Of a DNA stretch of 64,000 nt, positions 9,290 through 38,166 are shown in pieces. The position numbers and the translations under genes are program-made. Position 1 is the first letter of the stretch; the number at the start of each line of letters is the position of its first letter. The notes beneath the pieces were generated by a model. The model was given only the letters and a program-made list of their open reading frames with translations. It was not told where the DNA came from and searched no databases. Source of the stretch: Rhizophagus irregularis (Eukaryota > Glomeromycota > Glomeromycetes > Glomerales > Glomeraceae); contig NC_089434.1 in assembly GCF_026210795.1 (NCBI RefSeq), positions 5,580,001-5,644,000 on the forward strand. Reading direction: 5' to 3'.

Positions 9290-10240
9290 TATGCGATGTA
9301 AATATTATCACGTAACCACATCGTAGTGATGTCGTATTAACATTGAATTAATATTACAAAAATATTTGACATTTATTTGATATCGTAACCACATCGTAAT
9401 GATGTCATATTAATATTGAATTAATATTACAAAATATTTGACATTTTATTTGATATCGTAACCATGTCGTAGTGATATTGTATTAACATTGAATTAATAT
9501 TACAAAATATTTGACATTTTATTTGATATTGTAACCACATCGTAGTAGGACCCCGGATATCTCCAAAACAGGTCATAAGTCACACTTTCGGCAGATTGGC
9601 CCATTTTTCAGGGGCTCAAAAAATCGTTTTTTGTAAATATCTCGGCATCCAGTGGTCCAATTTTGATGAACTTTTTTTTAAATTGTAGAGCTAAATGAGG
9701 GCTACAAAATAAAAAAAAGTTCATTAAAATTGAATTACTGGATGCTGAGATATTTACAAAAAACGATTTTTTGAGTTTCAGCAAAAAGGGGTGTTTTTGG
9801 CCAAAAGTCCATTATGACCTTTATATTAGATATCCGGGGTCCTATCGTAGTGATATCATATTAACATCAAATTAATATTGCAAAAATATTTTACATCTAT
9901 TTTATATCGTAACCACATCATAGTGATGTCGTATTAACATTGAATTAATATTACAAAATATTTGACATTTTATTTGATATCGTAACCACATCGTAGTGAT
10001 ATCATATTAACATCGAATTAATATTGCAAAAATATTTTACATCTGTTTGATATCGTAGCCACATCGTAGTGATGTCGTATTAACATTGAATTAATATTAC
10101 AATTTTATTTGATATCGTAACTACATCATAATAATATCATATTAATATCGAATTAATATTACAAAAAATGTTTTACATTTATTTAATATCGTAACTACAT
10201 CGTAATGATATTATATCAACACTGAATTAACATCACAAAA
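9290..10240. repeat. satellite-like tandem array, about 73-bp unit
   Basis: Units begin near GATATCGTAACCACATCGTA and continue with a T/A-rich half that includes CATTGAATTAATATTACAAA. Successive copies at about 9311, 9386, 9459 and onward are close to 73 bp apart, with point differences and some length variation. The array is interrupted at 9547-9843 by a fold-back element. Upstream (9120-9290) is related, less regular DNA rich in GATATC and GCGATATCG palindromes. Confidence 0.75.
9547..9843. mobile_element. 297-bp fold-back MITE inside the satellite
   Basis: It starts AGGACCCCGGATATCT and ends AGATATCCGGGGTCCT, and most of its length is a near-perfect palindrome around a short centre near 9690-9705. 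The 8-bp ATCGTAGT of the satellite is present directly before (9539-9546) and after (9844-9851) the element, consistent with a target duplication. An 8-bp duplication suits a hAT-type or related cut-and-paste element. No coding capacity. Confidence 0.85.
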
Positions 10241-28000: not shown

Positions 28001-28158
28001 AATATAAAAGTTAGAAAATATAATTCAACCCAGTTTAATTACTTTGATATTTACTTTTAAAATGGATAGAATTTAATTTATTACTTTTAATAAAATTTAC
28101 CAGAATTATAAGGTAAAATTTATATAAGAAAATTTTAAAAATCCTACTATATATAAAT
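25051..28158. other. AT-rich intergenic DNA
   Basis: No supported gene. At 25750-25800 the phrase ATCCTGTTATTGTT is repeated after a short spacer. From 26300 to 28150 it is low-complexity A/T DNA. The short open frames at 25420 and 27658 are compositionally biased and have no recognisable domain. Confidence 0.35.
26076..26189. repeat. minisatellite, 18-bp unit
   Basis: Six tandem copies of CATCGGTTTACTTACATA with small variants (one 19-bp copy reading CATCGTGTTACC...). As 18 is a multiple of three, the frame on the plus strand stays open across it and yields a spurious histidine/tyrosine repeat. Confidence 0.85.
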
Positions 28159-28451
28159 CACTGGTCAAAAACCAATATATCAGGTAGCAGATATGTATCA
28201 GATATGTACCCGATATGTGTAGTATTAATGCAGAAAATCGGGTACCTGATATGTAGACATATGTGTAAATATATATATCATATACATATCGGGTACCGAT
28301 ACGTATATTTATATATATAAACATGTATACGATATATATATTTACACATATCTTACACATATCGGGTACCCGATTTTCTGCATTAATACTACACATATTG
28401 GGTACATATCTGATACATATCTGCTACCCGATATATTGGTTTTTGACTAGT
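28159..28451. mobile_element. fold-back MITE whose right end is a LINE insertion site
   Basis: The left arm starts CACTGGTCAAAAACCA; the right arm, in reverse complement, starts ACTAGTCAAAAACCA. The arms match for well over 100 bp, through CGGGTACCCGAT-type blocks, to a centre near 28305, so the whole unit is a palindrome. The last 15 bp (28437-28451, TGGTTTTTGACTAGT) recur after each of two LINE copies downstream. The base after the final repeat (G at 37826) completes the terminal CACTAGTC inverted repeat, so the real right end of this MITE appears to lie at 37826. Confidence 0.82.
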
Positions 28452-28583
28452 AGTAGCAACTCTCTCCTGAATTTTTCAAAAACGAAATTTTCACTAAAAA
28501 TATTTTTTATTATTTTTAAAAAATAATACAAACTACTAATAAAATTTTATATTTTATATATTCCCAACTCGAAGCCCTCTACT

Positions 28584-30702
28584 ATGTCTGGTAACTATGC
28601 CAAGAGAGGCCGTGGAGGTCATAACCCTAACAGTAGGAAAGCTTCCCGTCAAGAACGAAAAAATAATAACTCCGATAACTCAAGCTCCGATGGTGAAAAC
28701 ACTGTCCAGCAGAAACGTAATCGTACGATTACCGAAAATTCTATGGAAGAAGACTACGTTGCCGATGACCAGACGGCTGACGTTGGAGTAGATGGATTTT
28801 CCTCTTCTCCTCAACAAAATATCTCTGGCGAAAATACTTTGACCTCCTCCCCGAAAAAATCTGCTGCGCCAACTGCGCCCAGTCACGTCCGCGTCTTCTG
28901 GAAACGTGGACGCGTCCATGCATGCACCTTTAAACAAAGACTTGCAACAACCCCCTAACGCGTCGCCCAATCTGGATACCAATGGCGCTCCAGATGACGA
29001 TCATACTTCAGATCCAGCGCGACCCTCGCCATAACCAGAGAAGATTTTCAGGCTGCGGCTGCACAGATGCTGCCCCCTGAATCTCTTAAGAAATTCCCTA
29101 CCAACAAAGCCCTTGTGAGGTGTTAATAATCTTTTTAGAAACTGCAGTCGTTTACTGGAAAAGCACGTATGACTGGTTCAGTGAAGCCAAACGCTCCGTT
29201 ATCAGCCATACAGCTGAAGACGCGATCTGCGTTGGTTCCACCCTCCTGAGACGGCTTAATCTTTCGTGCACGTGACCCTCGCCAACTCCGATCAATGAAG
29301 ATCTCCGGGCTATCCAAGTTACCGATATCCCTTTCTTCATTAAAAAAGACAACCTCATGGCTTATTTTAAGAAATTTGGTAATATCACCTCTTGCCGCCT
29401 TTTCTCCAGGCCTAATGCCAAAGTTCAGCAAGCCCGCATTGTTTATGATCACGCCGATTCTATTGCTCGTTTTACCGACCAATGGGCTGTGTACTGTTTC
29501 TCCACCTGCTCCAGTTACTCATGTGTTCAATATTCTGTGGATCAAAAGGCTGCGCGCCGTCAATACGTTGCCACCCTCACCCAACTTCCCCCAATGTTAA
29601 GGATATCAATTTGGCTCCCTTACCCTTTTCTCGTAGCCTTGGCGCTAAAGCTGTCCCAATGTGCCGCTTTCTCTAAACTCTTCTGAGCCCAAAGATGGGG
29701 GCTTTATGTCACCTTGATTCCCAAGAAACCATGGATGCTGCTATGGAACAGACTGTCAGCTTCCAAGGCAAAGTGCTTTTCTGGTCCTCCCCAGATAATT
29801 ACTAACAAACTTTGTCACAGATGTGGCAAATTAGGTTGTGCTCCAAATTTTTGCCCACTCAAACAAACCAGAGGTGAAGTCGCACTCGCGGCGCCCCGTT
29901 GCAAAACTTAAAGAACGATTTAATGTTAATCAACCTCATCGCTCCAATTCTAGCGTCGCCAATCGCACGTTCTCGCTCTCGATCTCGCTCCAAATCTAAA
30001 GATCGATCCGCTTCCAATTCTGGACGAGCCAATAACGATTTTGCCCACGACCACTTACTTAATAATGATAATAATCATAACAAACCCCCTCCCAGTACCT
30101 CTCATCGTGCCCGCCATAATAGCAAAGAACGATCGGTCTCCTTTTCTTCCTCCTCTCGTTCTAAAGCACGTCCCTTACCTCGACAAACTCCTAACTCTGC
30201 ATTATCTCCTGATGACGCTAATAACATTTTAAACCTTTTGCGAGAATTACAATGTGAAGTTGCCGAACTTTCACAAACGCATCTCCGCTCTTGAACTTGC
30301 TGACCAACGGATGACTCGTATTGAATCGCACCTTGGCCTCGATCCACTTCCTGTGCCCAATGAACCCTGAACCGGACCTCATGCAAGAAGATGCCCCTGT
30401 AACTCATGTTCCGCTTAATATTCAGTCTTCCGCTAAATCTTCACGCCCCCCAAAAGCATTTTAACGCGACCTTCGCCTACATTCACTATTATTCCTGACA
30501 CATCACTTCCTTCTTCTCACCTTTCTCCAAATGCTCCTCCTTTTACCCCTATCTCCTCCACGCAAGAAGAAATTAATGATCTCAAAAATAGTAGAGTCGT
30601 TATTGAAAGTAAATTGGACCAACTTACTGGTCATATCAAACAATTCATTAGCTCCATTGGTGGTGCTCCCCTAGAACAAGCTGATTCAGCTTCTTCTATT
30701 TA
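28584..30702 (+). pseudogene. LINE ORF1 (RRM-like and zinc-knuckle protein), frameshifted
   Basis: The ATG at 28584 opens a polar, Arg/Ser/Glu-rich N-terminus (to 28958). Beyond it the coding signal moves between frames. At about 29310-29510 an RRM-like segment is readable (IQVTDIPFFIKKDNLMAYFK, FGNITSCRLF). A second segment follows (about 29560-29800), then a zinc knuckle (CHRCGKLGCAPNFCP, near 29811-29860). After that come an Arg/Ser-rich tract (RSRSRSKSKDRSAS) and a C-terminal part with a predicted coiled coil (LRELQCEVAEL). The order of RRM-like segments, knuckle and basic tail is typical of ORF1 proteins of Rhizophagus LINEs and would bind the element RNA. Several frameshifts and stops (for example near 29125 and 29275) show this copy is dead. 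Confidence 0.72.
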
Positions 30703-30753
30703 ATTTTCTTCTTCAAATCTTATCTTCCCGACTGTTTTTATCATTGTGTTTTA

Positions 30754-33700
30754 ATGTCGAACAATAATTTTAATTATGACACCTTTGTACGAAACCCTCC
30801 CAACCCCAATAATGTTACTGAACTTTTTTCACATGAATCATTATTTTCTTCTCCTAGTAACACTTCTCCTATCCCCAATTCATTTAATATCTCCTCTTTT
30901 AATGTCAATGGCCTTAAAATGCATGGTCAGACTAAATTAGAAGAGATTTCTACCTTCTTTTCTCTAAAACATATTTCCTTTGGTGGTATTGTTGATACTC
31001 ATATCCACCCTAAACAAATGAAGTTTTTATCCAAACGACTTTCTAATTATACTGTGTTTTCTTCGAATTTGGATACTTCTAAACAAATTCTCTCTTCTGG
31101 TGGTGTTTCCCTATTTATAGAAAATTCTCTTGCATCACATGTACAAGACTTTAAATCCCATTCTTCACGACTGCTTTCTGTTGATTTATATTTCAAAGGC
31201 AATGTTAAATTGCGTATATTTGTTATTTATATCCCTCCCCCTGCTGAAAGTGTTCTGCGCACCGACACTATTGATTTGCTTATTCAACAACTTATCCTTA
31301 CTAAACAAGCTGGTTTTTATCATGCTGTTTGTGGCGATTTTAATATGCATTTAGATAAATATTATCCTATTTATTTTAATCAACCTCAAATTGCTTCAAA
31401 ACATATACACCGATTACTTTTTCATCTCCTTTCCCATGGATATGAAGATTTTACACCCATTAATCTTTCCGATTCTTTAGGTACCTTTCAACGCAATGAC
31501 CACATTACTCGTGTTGATTATGTATGGTCCTGCCCTCTTCTCAAAGGATTTGCTCTTACTGCTTGTATTTTTAATGCTCAAGACATCTGCACATCTGATC
31601 ACAACCCTGTCATCACATATTATGATATGTCTTTACTTTTTGCCTCTACCAAATTGGCTCGCGCTCGTCAACTTAAGCGCCAAACCCGTCGCATTTTCAA
31701 ATTTGATTCTGTAACTGATACTCAATGGACGGAATTTGCTGACAAAGCTGATGCCTTATGTGATGTTTCACCATCAACCTTTTCCTCCTGGCATATCAAT
31801 CAGATGTGCGAATACCTTCAATCGCGAATCCTTAAATCCGCCAACGCTACTTTACCTTCTTCTACTGTTGGCAATAATTATACTCCTAAGGTTCCTAAAG
31901 ATCTGGAAATTTTAACTCAAAATTATCGGTTTTTAAATCGCCTAATGCATTCGATACGTCTATTGCGCAAATATCCTTTAACTTATTCTGCTGCTCATGA
32001 ACATAAGTGGTCTATACATTTGCATCGACTTCAGAACATTCTTCAATTATATAAGAAAATTTTTACTTTCATTCCTACTCTGCCCTTTTCTCTTTCATCA
32101 TGTCGACAAGATAATTTCAAGTCACTTCTTGATGATTTATCCAATATTTCAAAATCCTTACGGGGATTTCATTTACTACAAGAAAAAGAATTCCAAGACT
32201 CCTCCATCCGTGCTCACTTGGACGATAGGAATAATAATTTTGAAACTGACCTTTCCTCCTTTATTGATTCAGCGCTTTCTCGCACCCGTCGCCGTATCAC
32301 TTTGGACCGTGTCTTCATCGACCATCCTTCTCAACCTCAGTTGTTGACTGCTCCTAAGGACATAGATGATGCTGTTGTTAACCATTTCCAAAACTTTGTA
32401 CCTATAAAGTCCACTCCTCCTGTATCTATCGATACACTACCCGATAGATGGTCTTCTGCCTATCAACCTATGGATGATGTGTCCTCCTCCATCTATGATT
32501 CTTTAATGAATCCCCCCTACCCTTGATGAATGGTTATCCACCGTTTCTTCCACTCCTAACGGTAAAGCCTCTGGTCCTTCCATGATTACTTATGAAATGC
32601 TCAAACATCTCGGATCTCGTACCTCGGCTTTACTTCTCATTTTGATTCAAGCATGTCTTTCCAAAGCTGATATTCCTGATTTATGGCGACAAGCAATGGT
32701 TTTTCCTATCCCCAAACCTCACGAATGGAAGTGTCAATTAAAAAATACTCGCCCTATTACCCTACTTGAAGTGATTAGGAAATCTCTTGTCAAACTTTTT
32801 TATAATCGCCTTTCTACCATTATGGCTTCACATGATGTTCTTAAAGGTGGTAACTTCGCTGGTCTTCCTGGAGGTTCTTGCCGCGACCCTATTATTACTT
32901 TAGAATCTATTATCCATGATGCTGATATCAACAAAAACCCACTTTGGATTCTTTCCCAAGATATTTCTAAAGCTTTTGATTCTGTTGATTTAACGATGTT
33001 ACGTTTCGCTTTAGAACGTATACGTCTTCCAGCCTCCGCTGTTATGTTTATTCTTTCACTTTTTATGAAACGCACTAATCGCGTTTTCACTGCTCATGGA
33101 TCTACGCCTGCCTATAGGGTTCGCATTGGTATTGACCAAGGCGAAGTTATTTCTCCTCTTTTATGGGTCATTTATATTGATCCCTTACTTACTATTCTGA
33201 AGAATGAGATGATGGACCCTTATGTTCTTTCTACACCGTCTTTAATTGATTCTTCAAGTCCTTCTCTTGATTTGAAGATTAATAATTTAGTATTTATGGA
33301 TGACTCTACTCTTATTTCCTCGTCAAAAGCTGGCATGGAATTTATGTTATCCATTACTGAAGAATTTTATCAGATCAATAACACTTCTGCCAATCATAAC
33401 AAATATGTGTTAATCACTAATTCGTTGCCTTTGACTCCGAATTCCACTTTATCCCCTATCACTTTTAATTTGGATTTATCCTTTTTAAATAGTGTTCCTT
33501 CCATTACTATTACCCCAATTTCCATGACAACTTCTTTTCGTTTTTTAGGTGTTTGGTTTAACATTAAGAGCTCCCGTGATTTTGTCAAGAAGCAACTCAA
33601 ACGCGAATGCTGCTCCTTTGCTGCGACCATCCGACCTGCAAAGCTCTCTTCCAAACAAGTTGTGTATTTACATAATGCCGTCCTTATACCGAAACTTGAT

Positions 33701-36382
33701 TATCGGATGCAAGTTACTCACTTATCTGAATCTGATTGTCACCTAATAACGAGAAGTATACGATCTGTCGTAAAGCATAAAGCAAACTTTTCTCGTTCTT
33801 TACCTAATTCCATTTTATTTTTGTCTCATGCCTTGGGCTTGATTAATTTGTTTGCTCATCAACGACAATGTCATATTACTAATTTATTTTTAATGGCTAA
33901 CTCTTCTTCTGTTTTTATTCAATCTCTTTTTATTTATAGATTGAGTTTAATTCAATATAATTTTTTGATTCCTATTTCTCCCCTTTTAATTAAAGATTGG
34001 TCTATATGGTCTTCTCTATTTTCTTTCAAAAAAGATTATATCGCATGCACTATTGCTCTCTTGTCTTCTACTCCTTTTCGGTTGCTTCACACTCAATTAT
34101 CGAAGCTTCCAAATTTATCCTTGATAGATGGATGCGTTCCTTTATTTGAATGCATGACGCCTATAGCCTTTAAAGCTTATTTTCCCATCCTGCGTAAACG
34201 ACAACTGTTTTATTTATCTCAGCTTGTTACTCCTCAAGGAACTCATTTAATTTCCTGGAAGGCTTACTATGATAATTTGGTTGGACGACGTGGCCCTCGG
34301 CCGTATCCCTTATTGGTATAAAGATATCCAACAAGCTACCACTGTTCGACTCCAATAATCGTTTGCTGGATCAGTTTATTACTCTGCATACGAATGCTTC
34401 TTCATTTTATGAATTGGAACCTTGTCTATCCTCTCCTCCCACTACAAAAAATTGGATTGTCACGTTAGACGATCTTGGTTCTCCCATCTTCGGCAAACAA
34501 CTTTTGGTCCAAACAAGTCGTGGTACTTGTTCCATTGTCCATTGGGTCTCTCCTGATTGTGAATCTTCGCCTGGAGATCTTATTCGACTTTCTCTTCGCC
34601 CCTGGCTGCGCTGCCCATATTCCCCTACCTCCTTCCAAAAAACGGAATGCTGATTTAACCCTATGTACAACTACGGTCTCTCTACGCCATTCGCTTATTT
34701 TGCCCACTACCAATGAACGAATTAGACGTACTACCTCTGAAGTGACTTCACCTTTTACCTGGGCTGATATAGAAGATGGTGTCCGTCTTTATTATAGTAG
34801 ATTGGATTTTGATTCCGATTCTTATTCTGCAGATACCGCTATAGCCCCTAATACTCCTGTCGCTATTGAATCCTCGGCTGCTGCTGTCTTTGCAAATTCC
34901 CCGCTGGTCGTTTATCGGATTCGCGTTATACCTTTTTCGCTGATGGGTCTCTTATTAATTTAGGCACTCCCGATGTCTCTATGGGCTGGTCTTGGATGCA
35001 AATAGTCCCTGATGCAGGTTTTCCTAACTCTATCGCCACTTACGCTCACGGCCTCATACGTGATAATCCCTCTTCTTCTCGTGCTGAGGCTGCTGCTATT
35101 TATGCAGTTTTAACTATTTCTCCACGTGACTCAGAAGTTACTATTTATACTGACTCGCAAACTGCCATTGATGGTCTCCGAAGTTGTTTTTCCTCTATTT
35201 ATTCAAATAGTCGTTTGTACTATAAAACTACAAATTTTGAACTTTGGGCTATTATCGAGCGAACCATCCTCTCAAAAAATTTGACTGTCCTTCCCGTCAA
35301 AGTTAAAGCTCATTCTGGCAATTACTTAAACGATTTTGCTGACTCCTTGGCCAATACTGCTCATACCGCGTCAACCAGTATTTTGATCTCTGGAATGGAC
35401 CTGGCCTCTGCCCATGATTTTGTCTTAATTTATGACAATGATGTTGTTTGTGAATTTAATCCACGACACCTCCTAAAACAATATTATCAAACGCAGTTAA
35501 TGCGCGATTTGTTAAATTTAACGCGATTTCACTTTATTACTTTATTATCAATTAATATAGATTATATTGTTGACTGGGAACTTACTTGGTTCACCTTAAA
35601 TTTTAAGCCCTCTCATGATGCATCTTTTACTCCTGAGCACGCTTCAAGACACCTAACCTTTAAATTCAAACTTTTCTTGGATGATTTGCCTACACTGGAA
35701 AAGCTTAAACGGACCCGACCAGACTTATACATGGACGAATTAACTTGCCGTTCTTGTATCGACCGCATGGAAGACCTGATGCACCTTTTTATGTGCAAAA
35801 GACGACGTCTGCCTATGCAGCAAATTCTCCAATCTTATCAAAATCATTTGATTTCCAAACTTCTGGAAGCGAGTAATTTGGTTGATACTGATCCTACTCC
35901 ATTTATAGCTAAACTTACTTCTCTTTCATGCTGGTCCTTTTCTTCTACAAATTGGTCCTCCTTCGCCCTTATCCGTGGTTGCTTACCCAAACTTTTCATC
36001 GACTTATTTGTTGATTTATCCATTCCGAGAACTTCTGCGATTAAAGTTATCGCTGCTATTCATAACAATTTTGTCCAGAAATTCAGAAGACGAATCTGGA
36101 ATCCGCGTTCTTTATGAGAAAAGTAGATGGGAAAATGCGATGAACATTACCTATAAGTTGAAAACTACTCCGAAGCCATCCAATCTGCCTTTGTCGATGT
36201 ACATACCTTACTCATCTTTACCACCTCCGACCCTACACGATTCACGTGACTCCGGAACCGATTGGTTGAAGAACTCGATGAAATATGGTTTGCCTTGGTT
36301 TAATCACTTTTCGGGTTTTATGGGTCGTCTAACGGTGCTACTTAATAACAGCTTTTGCAGGATGGAGTGTCGATTTTTATAG
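30754..36382 (+). pseudogene. LINE ORF2: APE endonuclease, reverse transcriptase, RNase H, zinc knuckle; frameshifted
   Basis: Domains in order: AP-type endonuclease (30890-31620: SSFNVNGL, DTHIHP, CGDFNMHLD, RVDYVW, TSDHNPV); reverse transcriptase (about 32580-33600: PIPKPHEWKC, SQDISKAFDSVD, GIDQGEVISPLLW, and the catalytic FMDD at about 33295); RNase H (34935-35360: ADGSL, SSRAEAAAIYAV, IYTDSQTAI, NDFADSLAN, all four acidic positions present). Near the C-terminus is a CCHC-type knuckle, CRSCIDRMEDLMHLFMC. The frame changes near 32515 (a run of six C), 34315, 34600, 34930 and 36110. Comparison with the truncated copy indicates that the protein originally ran on to about 36382 (ending RMECRFL) rather than stopping at 36117. 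The product would nick the target and copy the RNA at it. Without the shifts it would be about 1,870 residues. Confidence 0.85.
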
Positions 36383-36638
36383 TGGGCGCGCTATTCGTTA
36401 TTTTGTTAGCATAGTTGCTTCTACTTTGGTTGGAATATATCAAGGGGGAAGATCTGGGGAAATTTAGTGTAATGCGATTTTTCTTTTTTTAGATTAATTT
36501 TTTACTTTATTTTTTCTTAGGAGACTATATAGCTTTGTTTTTAGTTAGTTTTATTTTTATATCTTTCTTTTTATTTTTGTAAATTGTTAAAGTTCGAATA
36601 AATTTAATAAAGATAAAGGCTACTATGCCACGTTTGCC

Positions 36639-36653
36639 TGGTTTTTGACTAGT
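36639..36653 (+). repeat. middle copy of the 15-bp LINE target sequence
   Basis: TGGTTTTTGACTAGT, identical to 28437-28451 and 37811-37825. It separates the long LINE from the truncated LINE, so it served as right flank of one and left flank of the other. Confidence 0.88.
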
Positions 36654-37810
36654 TTATCAAACGCAGTTAATGTGTGATTTGTTAAATTTAACGCGATTTC
36701 ACTTTACTTCTTTATTGTCATCTAATATAGATTATATTGTTGACTGAGAACTTACTTGGTTTACTTTAAATTTCAAGCCCTCTCATGATGCATCCTTTAC
36801 TCCTGACCACGCATCAAGACACTTAACCTTTAAATTCAAATTTTTCTTGGATGATTTGCCTACATTGGAAAAGCTTAAACGGACTCGACCAGATTTATAC
36901 ATGGACGAATTAACTTGCCGTTCTTGTATCGACCGCATGGAAGACCTGATGCACCTTTTTATGTGCAAAAATCGTCGTCTGCCTATGCAACAGATTCTTC
37001 AATTTTATCAACATCATTTGATTTCTAAACTTCTGGAAGCCAGAAACATGGCTGACATTGACCCTACTTTACTTATTGCTAAACTTACTTCTCTTTCATG
37101 CTGGTCCTTTTCTTCTACAAATTGGTCCTCCTACGCACTTGTCCGTAGTTGTTTGCCTAAACTCTTTATTGACTTATTTGTCGATTTATCCATCCCAAGG
37201 AACTCTACGATTAAGGTTATTGCTGCTATTCACAACAATTTTGTTCAAAAATTCAGATGACGAATTTGGAATCCGTGTTCTTATGATAAAAGTAGATGGG
37301 AAAATGCGATGAATATTACCTACAAGTTGAAAACTACTCCGATGCCTTCTAATTTGCCTTTGTCAACGTACATACCTTACTCATCTTTACCACCTCCGAC
37401 CCTACACGATTCACGTGACTCCAGAACCGATTGGTTGAAGAACTTGATGAAATATGGTTTGCCTTGGTTTAATCACTTTTCGGGTTTTATGGATCATCTA
37501 ACGGTGCTACTTAATAACAGCTTTTGCAGGATGGAGTGTCAATTTTTATAGTGGGCGCGCTATTCGTTATTTTGTTAGCATAGTTGCTTCTACTTTGGTT
37601 GGAATATACTGGCAAGGGGGAAGATTCAAGGGGAAATTTATTGTAATGCGATTTTTCTTTTTTAGATTAATTTTTTACTTTATTTTTTCTTAGGAGACTA
37701 TATAGCTTTGTTTTTAGTTAGTTTTATTTTTATATTTTTCTTTTTATTCTTGTAAATTGTAAAGTTCGAATAAATTTAATAAAGATAAAGGCTACTATGC
37801 CATGTTTGCC
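36654..37810 (+). mobile_element. 5'-truncated copy of the same LINE family
   Basis: It is colinear with 35484-36638 of the long copy, starting mid-ORF2 at TTATCAAACGCAGTTAATG and ending with the same 3' UTR, with scattered substitutions. It keeps most of the ORF2 C-terminus, including the CRSC..HLFMC knuckle (about 36910-36966), with a TGA at 37258. The 5' truncation is the usual outcome of target-primed reverse transcription. It is bounded by the 15-bp repeat on both sides. Confidence 0.88.
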
Positions 37811-37825
37811 TGGTTTTTGACTAGT
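37811..37825 (+). repeat. right copy of the 15-bp LINE target sequence
   Basis: Third identical TGGTTTTTGACTAGT. The next base, G, restores the terminal CACTAGTC (reverse complement) of the interrupted fold-back MITE. The following AATAAAT resembles the ATAAAT before the MITE's left end at 28153-28158. Confidence 0.85.
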
Positions 37826-38166
37826 GAATAAATTACATATAAAAAAGGAAATATTACAGATTTTTTTCTTTTTCAATCAATTAATCAATAGAATTGCTAG
37901 TAAAATTACTAATAAATTTTAATAATTATTAAATTTATATTTAAAGGAAATATTATATTATAAAGAATAAAAATTCTAGTTTTAAAATTGTTATTTTAAC
38001 ATAAAATAAATTAATTTTATTTTATTATAAAAATATATTATTTTTTCAATTAATATAACAATATTATATTGGTATTCATATTGAAATATTTTTTGTTATT
38101 TTTTATTCTTTAAAAGATTATTATTAATTATAATTTTATATATATAATTTTTAAAATATATTTATC

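Follow-up and report, generated by a model that had tools for sequence, protein, structure and literature searches.

Target-specific long interspersed nuclear elements (LINEs) are usually discussed for ribosomal RNA genes, telomere repeats and RNA genes. The Tx1L element of Xenopus, which belongs to the Tx1 clade, is a LINE with an apurinic/apyrimidinic endonuclease (APE)-type nuclease, and its fixed site lies inside the DNA transposon Tx1D. Here we describe a LINE family of the fungus Rhizophagus irregularis, seen in a stretch of 64,000 nucleotides (contig NC_089434.1, positions 5,580,001 to 5,644,000; the window hereafter) in which two copies, LINE 1 and LINE 2, lie in the end of a fold-back miniature inverted-repeat transposable element (MITE). 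We are confident that the subfamily of these copies, group A, is a site-specific LINE that targets the 15 bp just inside the terminal base of this CACTA-like MITE. In its choice of a transposon as target it appears to act as Tx1L does: both are APE-type LINEs with a fixed site in a DNA transposon. Features of the present LINE are the extreme MITE terminus as its site, the tandem stacks, the RNase H domain and the sister subfamilies at other sites.

The Tx1 and R1 clades are given as the target-specific APE groups in the consulted part of PMC4640811, and transposons are among the known LINE targets in the consulted parts of PMC4640811 and PMC8869645. LINEs of the R1 clade (R1, TRAS, SART) have the same APE endonuclease and strict site choice, but their targets are ribosomal DNA and telomere repeats, whereas the present LINEs go to MITE ends and to further dispersed repeats. 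In fungi, MoTeR1, FoTeR and Cnl1 are likewise site-specific non-long-terminal-repeat retrotransposons; PMC12857005, in the parts consulted, describes them as telomere-associated and as having a restriction-like endonuclease, in contrast to the APE-type endonuclease and the transposon ends found here. Surveys of transposable elements in R. irregularis name, in the parts consulted, R1- and Tx1-type LINEs and Plavaka/CACTA elements (PMC8647823; PMC11075540), including families called 'LINE R1' (PMC8647823) and 'LINE/L1-R1' (PMC11075540); the term 'target site' is absent from both main texts, and 'site-specific' from the one searched for it. The first-pass annotation of the window knew of no such LINE in this fungal group, and the open-licence PubMed Central literature (titles and openings of abstracts, for part of the matching papers) likewise yielded no fungal LINE that targets a MITE or DNA-transposon end.

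The window contains three copies, and no more, of the 15-mer TGGTTTTTGACTAGT, with 0 copies expected from 100 dinucleotide shuffles. All three copies stand at element boundaries, at exactly the positions first proposed (Table 1). With the G at 37826, the MITE is 294 bp long, has CACTRGTCAAAAACYA ends and reads CACTGGTCAAAAACCA...TGGTTTTTGACTAGTG; it is an almost perfect fold-back, with 96% complementarity between 95-nt arms (28160-28254 and 28357-28451) and a DNA fold z-score of -24 against shuffles. This G directly follows the last 15-mer and completes the MITE end ...GACTAGTG, as the first-pass annotation had seen, and the AAT after it matches the left flank. Both LINEs share the 3' end ...GCTACTATGCCAYGTTTGCC directly before a 15-mer. 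These positions and duplications are seen directly, and the interpretation of the first-pass annotation is supported. As to the order, we favour LINE 2 first and LINE 1 later beside the MITE, at the left copy of the target, because the best relative among the 60 pieces compared (see below) is 99.8% identical for LINE 1 and only 95.5% for LINE 2. Judged by sequence, LINE 1 is probably the younger insertion; a truncated LINE 2 followed by a near-full-length LINE 1 adjoining the MITE is the most likely order.

The genome searched was one assembly of 146.7 Mb in 32 contigs; matches were listed for the first 100 places, counts of repeats are lower bounds, and the copies are not independent of each other. 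The 24-mer at the LINE 3' end has 234 matches within 2 mismatches, against 0 for the reversed pattern. Among the 100 exact 3' ends listed, 54 are directly followed by the A site TRGTTTTTGACYAGT (up to 3 mismatches; 100 of 105 site matches listed). Reading the other 46 (L003-L048) gave five degraded or interrupted A sites (L023, L027, L036, L037, L048), 27 B sites, eight C sites, two D sites and four ends at none of these; a tabulation of 3' junctions, which had been suggested as a check, thus places 54 of the listed ends at the 15-mer and five more at its remnants. Off-target flanks follow three of the last four (L020, L044, L046). The fourth, L008, was considered as an off-target LINE copy and rejected, as its flank resembles an element end found in L075 that looks like a hAT end. 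Searched together, a LINE-type 3' end, the 15-mer and G occur at 105 places within 3 mismatches (control 0); a non-coding element described below accounts for at least 3 of the 100 listed. The LINE has a constant 3' junction and a target duplication at a recurring sequence.

Since the 15-mer follows more than half of the listed 3' ends, it might be thought a part of the LINE 3' untranslated region, captured once from a MITE and transported with the LINE ever since. We regard this as exceedingly improbable, because the same 15-mer is also present on the 5' side, truncated copies included, and the outer copy is followed by the terminal G of the MITE and then by unrelated flank. The 15-mer also varies among loci (TRG..GACYAGT), as a target sequence would. 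The decisive case is L131, which is 99.8% identical to LINE 1 over 1.26 kb and is flanked on both sides by TAGATCACTTTTAAC, a 15-bp duplication of unrelated sequence (L046 and L062, with 8.2 kb between them, are treated as the two ends of a single element). Because this near-identical off-target copy has a different 15-bp duplication, the LINE's own 3' end stops at TTTGCC, and the 15-mer is the target and not the untranslated region. Sister subfamilies end in TTTGCC as well and have other flanks. An origin of the 15-mer in the LINE, which the first-pass annotation had named among the outcomes fatal to its proposal, is rejected on both counts.

The 5' ends agree with the site-specific insertion first claimed. 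LINE 5' ends were found at 44 places, and 29 of them have at least 60 bp of upstream sequence. The 15-mer (up to 3 mismatches) lies within these 60 bp in 27 of the 29, against 19 of 3000 random window stretches, and a MITE arm lies within 120 bp upstream of 18; one of the two 5' ends without the 15-mer is L062, which is off-target. The distance from the 15-mer to the LINE start ACTCTCTCC is 1-14 bp (L199 excepted) and is often taken up by AGT repeats. Among the matches listed, 18 of the 44 5' ends stand 19-43 bp downstream of another LINE's 3' 24-mer. Orientation and arrays are directly visible: in the junctions read, LINEs occupy both MITE ends, point outwards and often stand in tandem, and pairs run outward from one MITE (L051-L055). 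Outward LINEs at both ends are expected because the MITE is symmetrical.

A genome search gave 178 exact outer CACTRGTCAAAAACYA termini, while the reversed pattern gave 28. The number of termini bears on whether the LINE might have a weak preference only, cutting many AT-rich sites (e.g. ..CA^AAA) among which MITE ends are merely abundant. The three off-target flanks do begin like the usual sites (TAG.. as in A; TTGA and TTAA as in B). Yet with so few exact termini in the assembly, 96 of the 100 listed 3' ends lie at four recurrent sites (the five degraded or interrupted ones included) and three are off-target, which makes a weak preference very improbable.

LINE-free MITEs are also observed, in keeping with the proposal that empty sites be sought. 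Among 100 listed outer termini, 42 have the 3' end of an inserted element (35 LINE, seven non-coding) and 58 have neither; 24 of the latter form 12 short pairs of 235-319 bp, and two of the pairs (C5:99723, C12:5078908) adjoin a LINE 5' end. The 3-bp flanks are identical in all 13 pairs of MITE ends tested that have no group A LINE between them; these are ten short MITEs, L074 with a nested hAT element, and L073 and L076, both of which contain the non-coding element. L075, which has three ends, was kept outside this count; its left end agrees with the inner right end (TAT) but not with the outer. CACTR termini and a 3-bp target duplication define CACTA/EnSpm elements; the present MITEs have CACTR termini and a target duplication in the range of 2-3 bp, like CACTA/EnSpm (CMC, Plavaka) MITEs. 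The few long members read contain no matching transposase and no autonomous partner was seen among them, and a genome-wide transposase search was not made. Transposases inside long MITE-like elements were considered as the MITE's own and rejected, as 8-bp duplications and the hAT domain in L074 mark them as nested elements. As a separate observation, hAT-type elements with 8-bp duplications are nested in the fold-back MITE copies L074 (hAT dimerisation domain, Pfam 1.5e-7) and L075 (BED finger, weak and under the cut-off), and an L075-like end also interrupts the LINE 3' end L008.

Among LINE-filled MITEs, seven of eight, the window included, also have identical 3-bp flanks. Moved composites would have such matching duplications of their own, and some LINE copies are 99% identical; a LINE could thus have entered one MITE only once, the composite then being multiplied by DNA transposase or by segmental duplication so that the recurrence was inherited. 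From the copies compared we nevertheless consider a single entry improbable, because group A copies are up to 14% different from LINE 1, have several distinct 5' truncation points, occupy either or both MITE ends and form stacks of varied number. In addition, sister subfamilies recur at unrelated sites, and the off-target copy shows the same 15-bp stagger.

Related subfamilies use other recurrent sites, one of which is the terminal repeat of an unrelated MITE. In the 60 pieces compared (a random 27 of the 54 A places, together with 33 of the remaining 46), the identity of the 3' piece to LINE 1 was 86-99% in A (LINE 1 itself included), 81-84% in D, 72-74% in B and, depending on the length covered, 72-82% in C. 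A midpoint-rooted tree of 48 pieces, leaving out 12 of the 60 for short or broken coverage (seven A including LINE 2, four C and one D), has three clades: one of the three C pieces (100/100), one that unites all 18 B pieces and two off-target copies (100/100), and one that joins A and D together with four others (100/99). Site labels change eight times on this tree, against a shuffled mean of 22.6 and with 0 of 200 shuffles as low, although near-copies cluster anyway. Between A and B, the endonuclease domains are 73% identical; a genome search in which 148 of 646 candidates were scored gave similar identity bands.

Site B, TTGAYAAGGACTGAT, has 60 junction matches (control 0) and is located in the repeat-rich leader of a dispersed open reading frame (ORF) family with at least 106 leader matches. 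By eye, the proteins of this family (L083-L090, genome-wide) start MSYPYIANPITGRPI...GGDTFNR, and tandem units of about 53 bp are present. Site C, CAAAAGTGTGACTTA, has 28 junction matches (control 0) and lies within the terminal repeat of the second, unrelated MITE (370 matches), which has 8-bp duplications in both copies examined (window, L198); a TA-flanked classification of this MITE was rejected for that reason. The window copy lies within a tandem-like AT-rich repeat. Site D, TATAGTAAAATATC, is the weakest: allowing 2 mismatches, it has 13 matches where the reversed pattern has 11, and it rests on the L034, L045 and L199 junctions. At each site the duplication appears to span about 15 bp; both sides were compared for A and the off-target copy only, and B, C and D were judged by eye from tandem copies and adjoining elements.

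LINE 1 has interrupted frames, which the first-pass annotation missed, as it did the use of several sites; its description of a site-specific LINE holds. Indels of the single assembly may have caused some of the broken frames. Family copies elsewhere have open frames of up to 1930 amino acids, and L094, a group B relative, has an extra upstream frame of 726 amino acids with an RRM domain. The domain order Exo_endo_phos_2, RVT_1, RNase_H places an APE-type endonuclease upstream of the reverse transcriptase; with this domain N-terminal, the LINE does not conform to the restriction-like (R2/CRE-like) type, although no separate search for a restriction-like domain was made. Against PDB, phmmer matched the reverse transcriptase to those of R2 and LINE-1 and a few others. 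The endonuclease domain profile had no PDB match up to E=10, the ORF part as a single sequence had none up to 0.1, and matches to NCBIfam were general and weak only.

Several points count against a strictly site-specific group A with an APE-type endonuclease. The endonuclease matches of LINE 1 (22.5 bits) and of the homologous group B frame (4e-6, 27.1 bits) both fall under the curated Pfam cut-off of 27.4, the second only just, and the structure prediction for this domain was too poor for use (mean pLDDT, the predicted local distance difference test score, 39.7). As many as 41 of the 100 listed 3' ends are off the A site, namely 37 at the three other recurrent sites, three off-target and L008 at the hAT-like end. 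On the 5' side, L191 starts on a degraded MITE end with 6 mismatches, and L199, counted among the 27 with 3 mismatches and a 30-bp gap, in fact belongs to group D, so that the stricter count is 26. One of the eight filled MITEs (C6:2598544) has mismatching 3-bp flanks, and some array copies may be segmental duplicates instead of separate insertions.

A non-coding element is often found at the same sites. It is 1256 bp long (L054:1815-3070 on C5, also L051 and L056), has no ORF of more than 110 codons, and its 3' end, ...AAGCTATGTTTRCC, resembles that of the LINE without similarity to the LINE body; its single significant match to the two LINE sequences falls at the far end of L094, on the start of an adjoining copy of the element. 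The 3' end has 54 genome matches (control 0). Coordinates place 21 of these at one of the four sites (A to D), and three more (L051, L054, L056) are at A; reading the remaining 30 showed 15 that match a site within 4 mismatches (ten A, three B, one C and one weak D; chance 2.6%) and 15 that match none of the four. The element gave no Rfam match above the gathering score and no tRNA gene by ARAGORN; by eye, it contains sequences that look like A and B boxes. It is probably moved by the LINE machinery, less strictly than the LINE itself. Three copies (L164, L185, L187) have a further flank, AAAAATCAAATTATC.., in common, which is perhaps another recurrent site or a duplicated locus.

For group A as a site-specific LINE, established LINE biology suggests the following course, in which the order of nicking and recognition by the endonuclease are inferred. 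The predicted APE-type endonuclease would nick the 5'-CACTRGTCAAAAACYA^ATATAT-3' strand inside the MITE end, and the freed 3' end would prime reverse transcription of a LINE RNA ending in ...TTTGCC, as in target-primed reverse transcription. A cut in the second strand (GACYAGT^G) would follow at a distance of 15 nt, a single base in from the transposon end. This would duplicate the 15-mer, each insertion would have a usable target on either side, and LINEs could pile up head-to-tail. Such a nick with a 15-nt stagger would account for the 3' junction being constant, for the 15-bp duplication with targets rebuilt on both sides, and for the arrays and the outward orientation.

Table 1. Coordinates of the elements, target copies and coding parts in the window.
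Feature	Position	Strand	Basis or remark
Second MITE, uninterrupted, AGGACCCCGGATATC...GATATCCGGGGTCCT; 8-bp duplication ATCGTAGT at 9539-9546 and 9844-9851	9547..9843		group C target elsewhere in the genome
3-bp target site duplication of MITE, left copy, AAT	28156..28158		identical to 37827-37829
Fold-back MITE, left end CACTGGTCAAAAACCA; G at 37826 completes right end	28159..28451		arms, fold, count of termini
15-mer target copy 1, end of MITE arm and 5' side of LINE 1	28437..28451	+	15-mer count; LINE 5' ends
LINE 1, 8187 bp, near full length, interrupted frames	28452..36638	+	5' end common to 44 genome places, 3' end to 234
LINE 1 ORF2, N-terminal part, APE-type endonuclease (putative)	30754..32526	+	Pfam Exo_endo_phos_2 E=1.1e-4, 22.5 bits against cut-off 27.4
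LINE 1 ORF2, reverse transcriptase part	32582..34321	+	Pfam RVT_1 E=1.1e-21
LINE 1 ORF2, RNase H and C-terminal part	34981..36117	+	Pfam RNase_H E=4.1e-10
15-mer target copy 2, LINE 1/LINE 2 boundary	36639..36653	+	15-mer count
LINE 2, 1157 bp, 5'-truncated	36654..37810	+	91.9% identity with LINE 1 3' end
15-mer target copy 3 and G completing MITE end	37811..37826	+	15-mer count; flank comparison
3-bp target site duplication of MITE, right copy, AAT	37827..37829		flank comparison

In this family, DNA-transposon ends serve as reusable docks that can build LINE arrays inside another repeat. It is conceivable, if rather unlikely as a whole, that the LINE family radiated into subfamilies each specialised on its own repeat dock, two or more of these docks being ends of unrelated MITEs; that the MITE end, restored by the cut with every insertion, is a renewable dock on which LINEs accumulate outward in arrays; that the MITE may carry LINEs along when it moves; and that transposon end and LINE co-evolve. 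The sister subfamilies have the same 3' stop bases and apparently the same duplication length (about 15 bp) with different landing sites, and they include near-identical copies and long open frames. Their different sites make a change of target by a LINE endonuclease directly testable by comparing or swapping endonuclease domains, and the family thus offers a natural case for how LINEs choose and change their landing sites.

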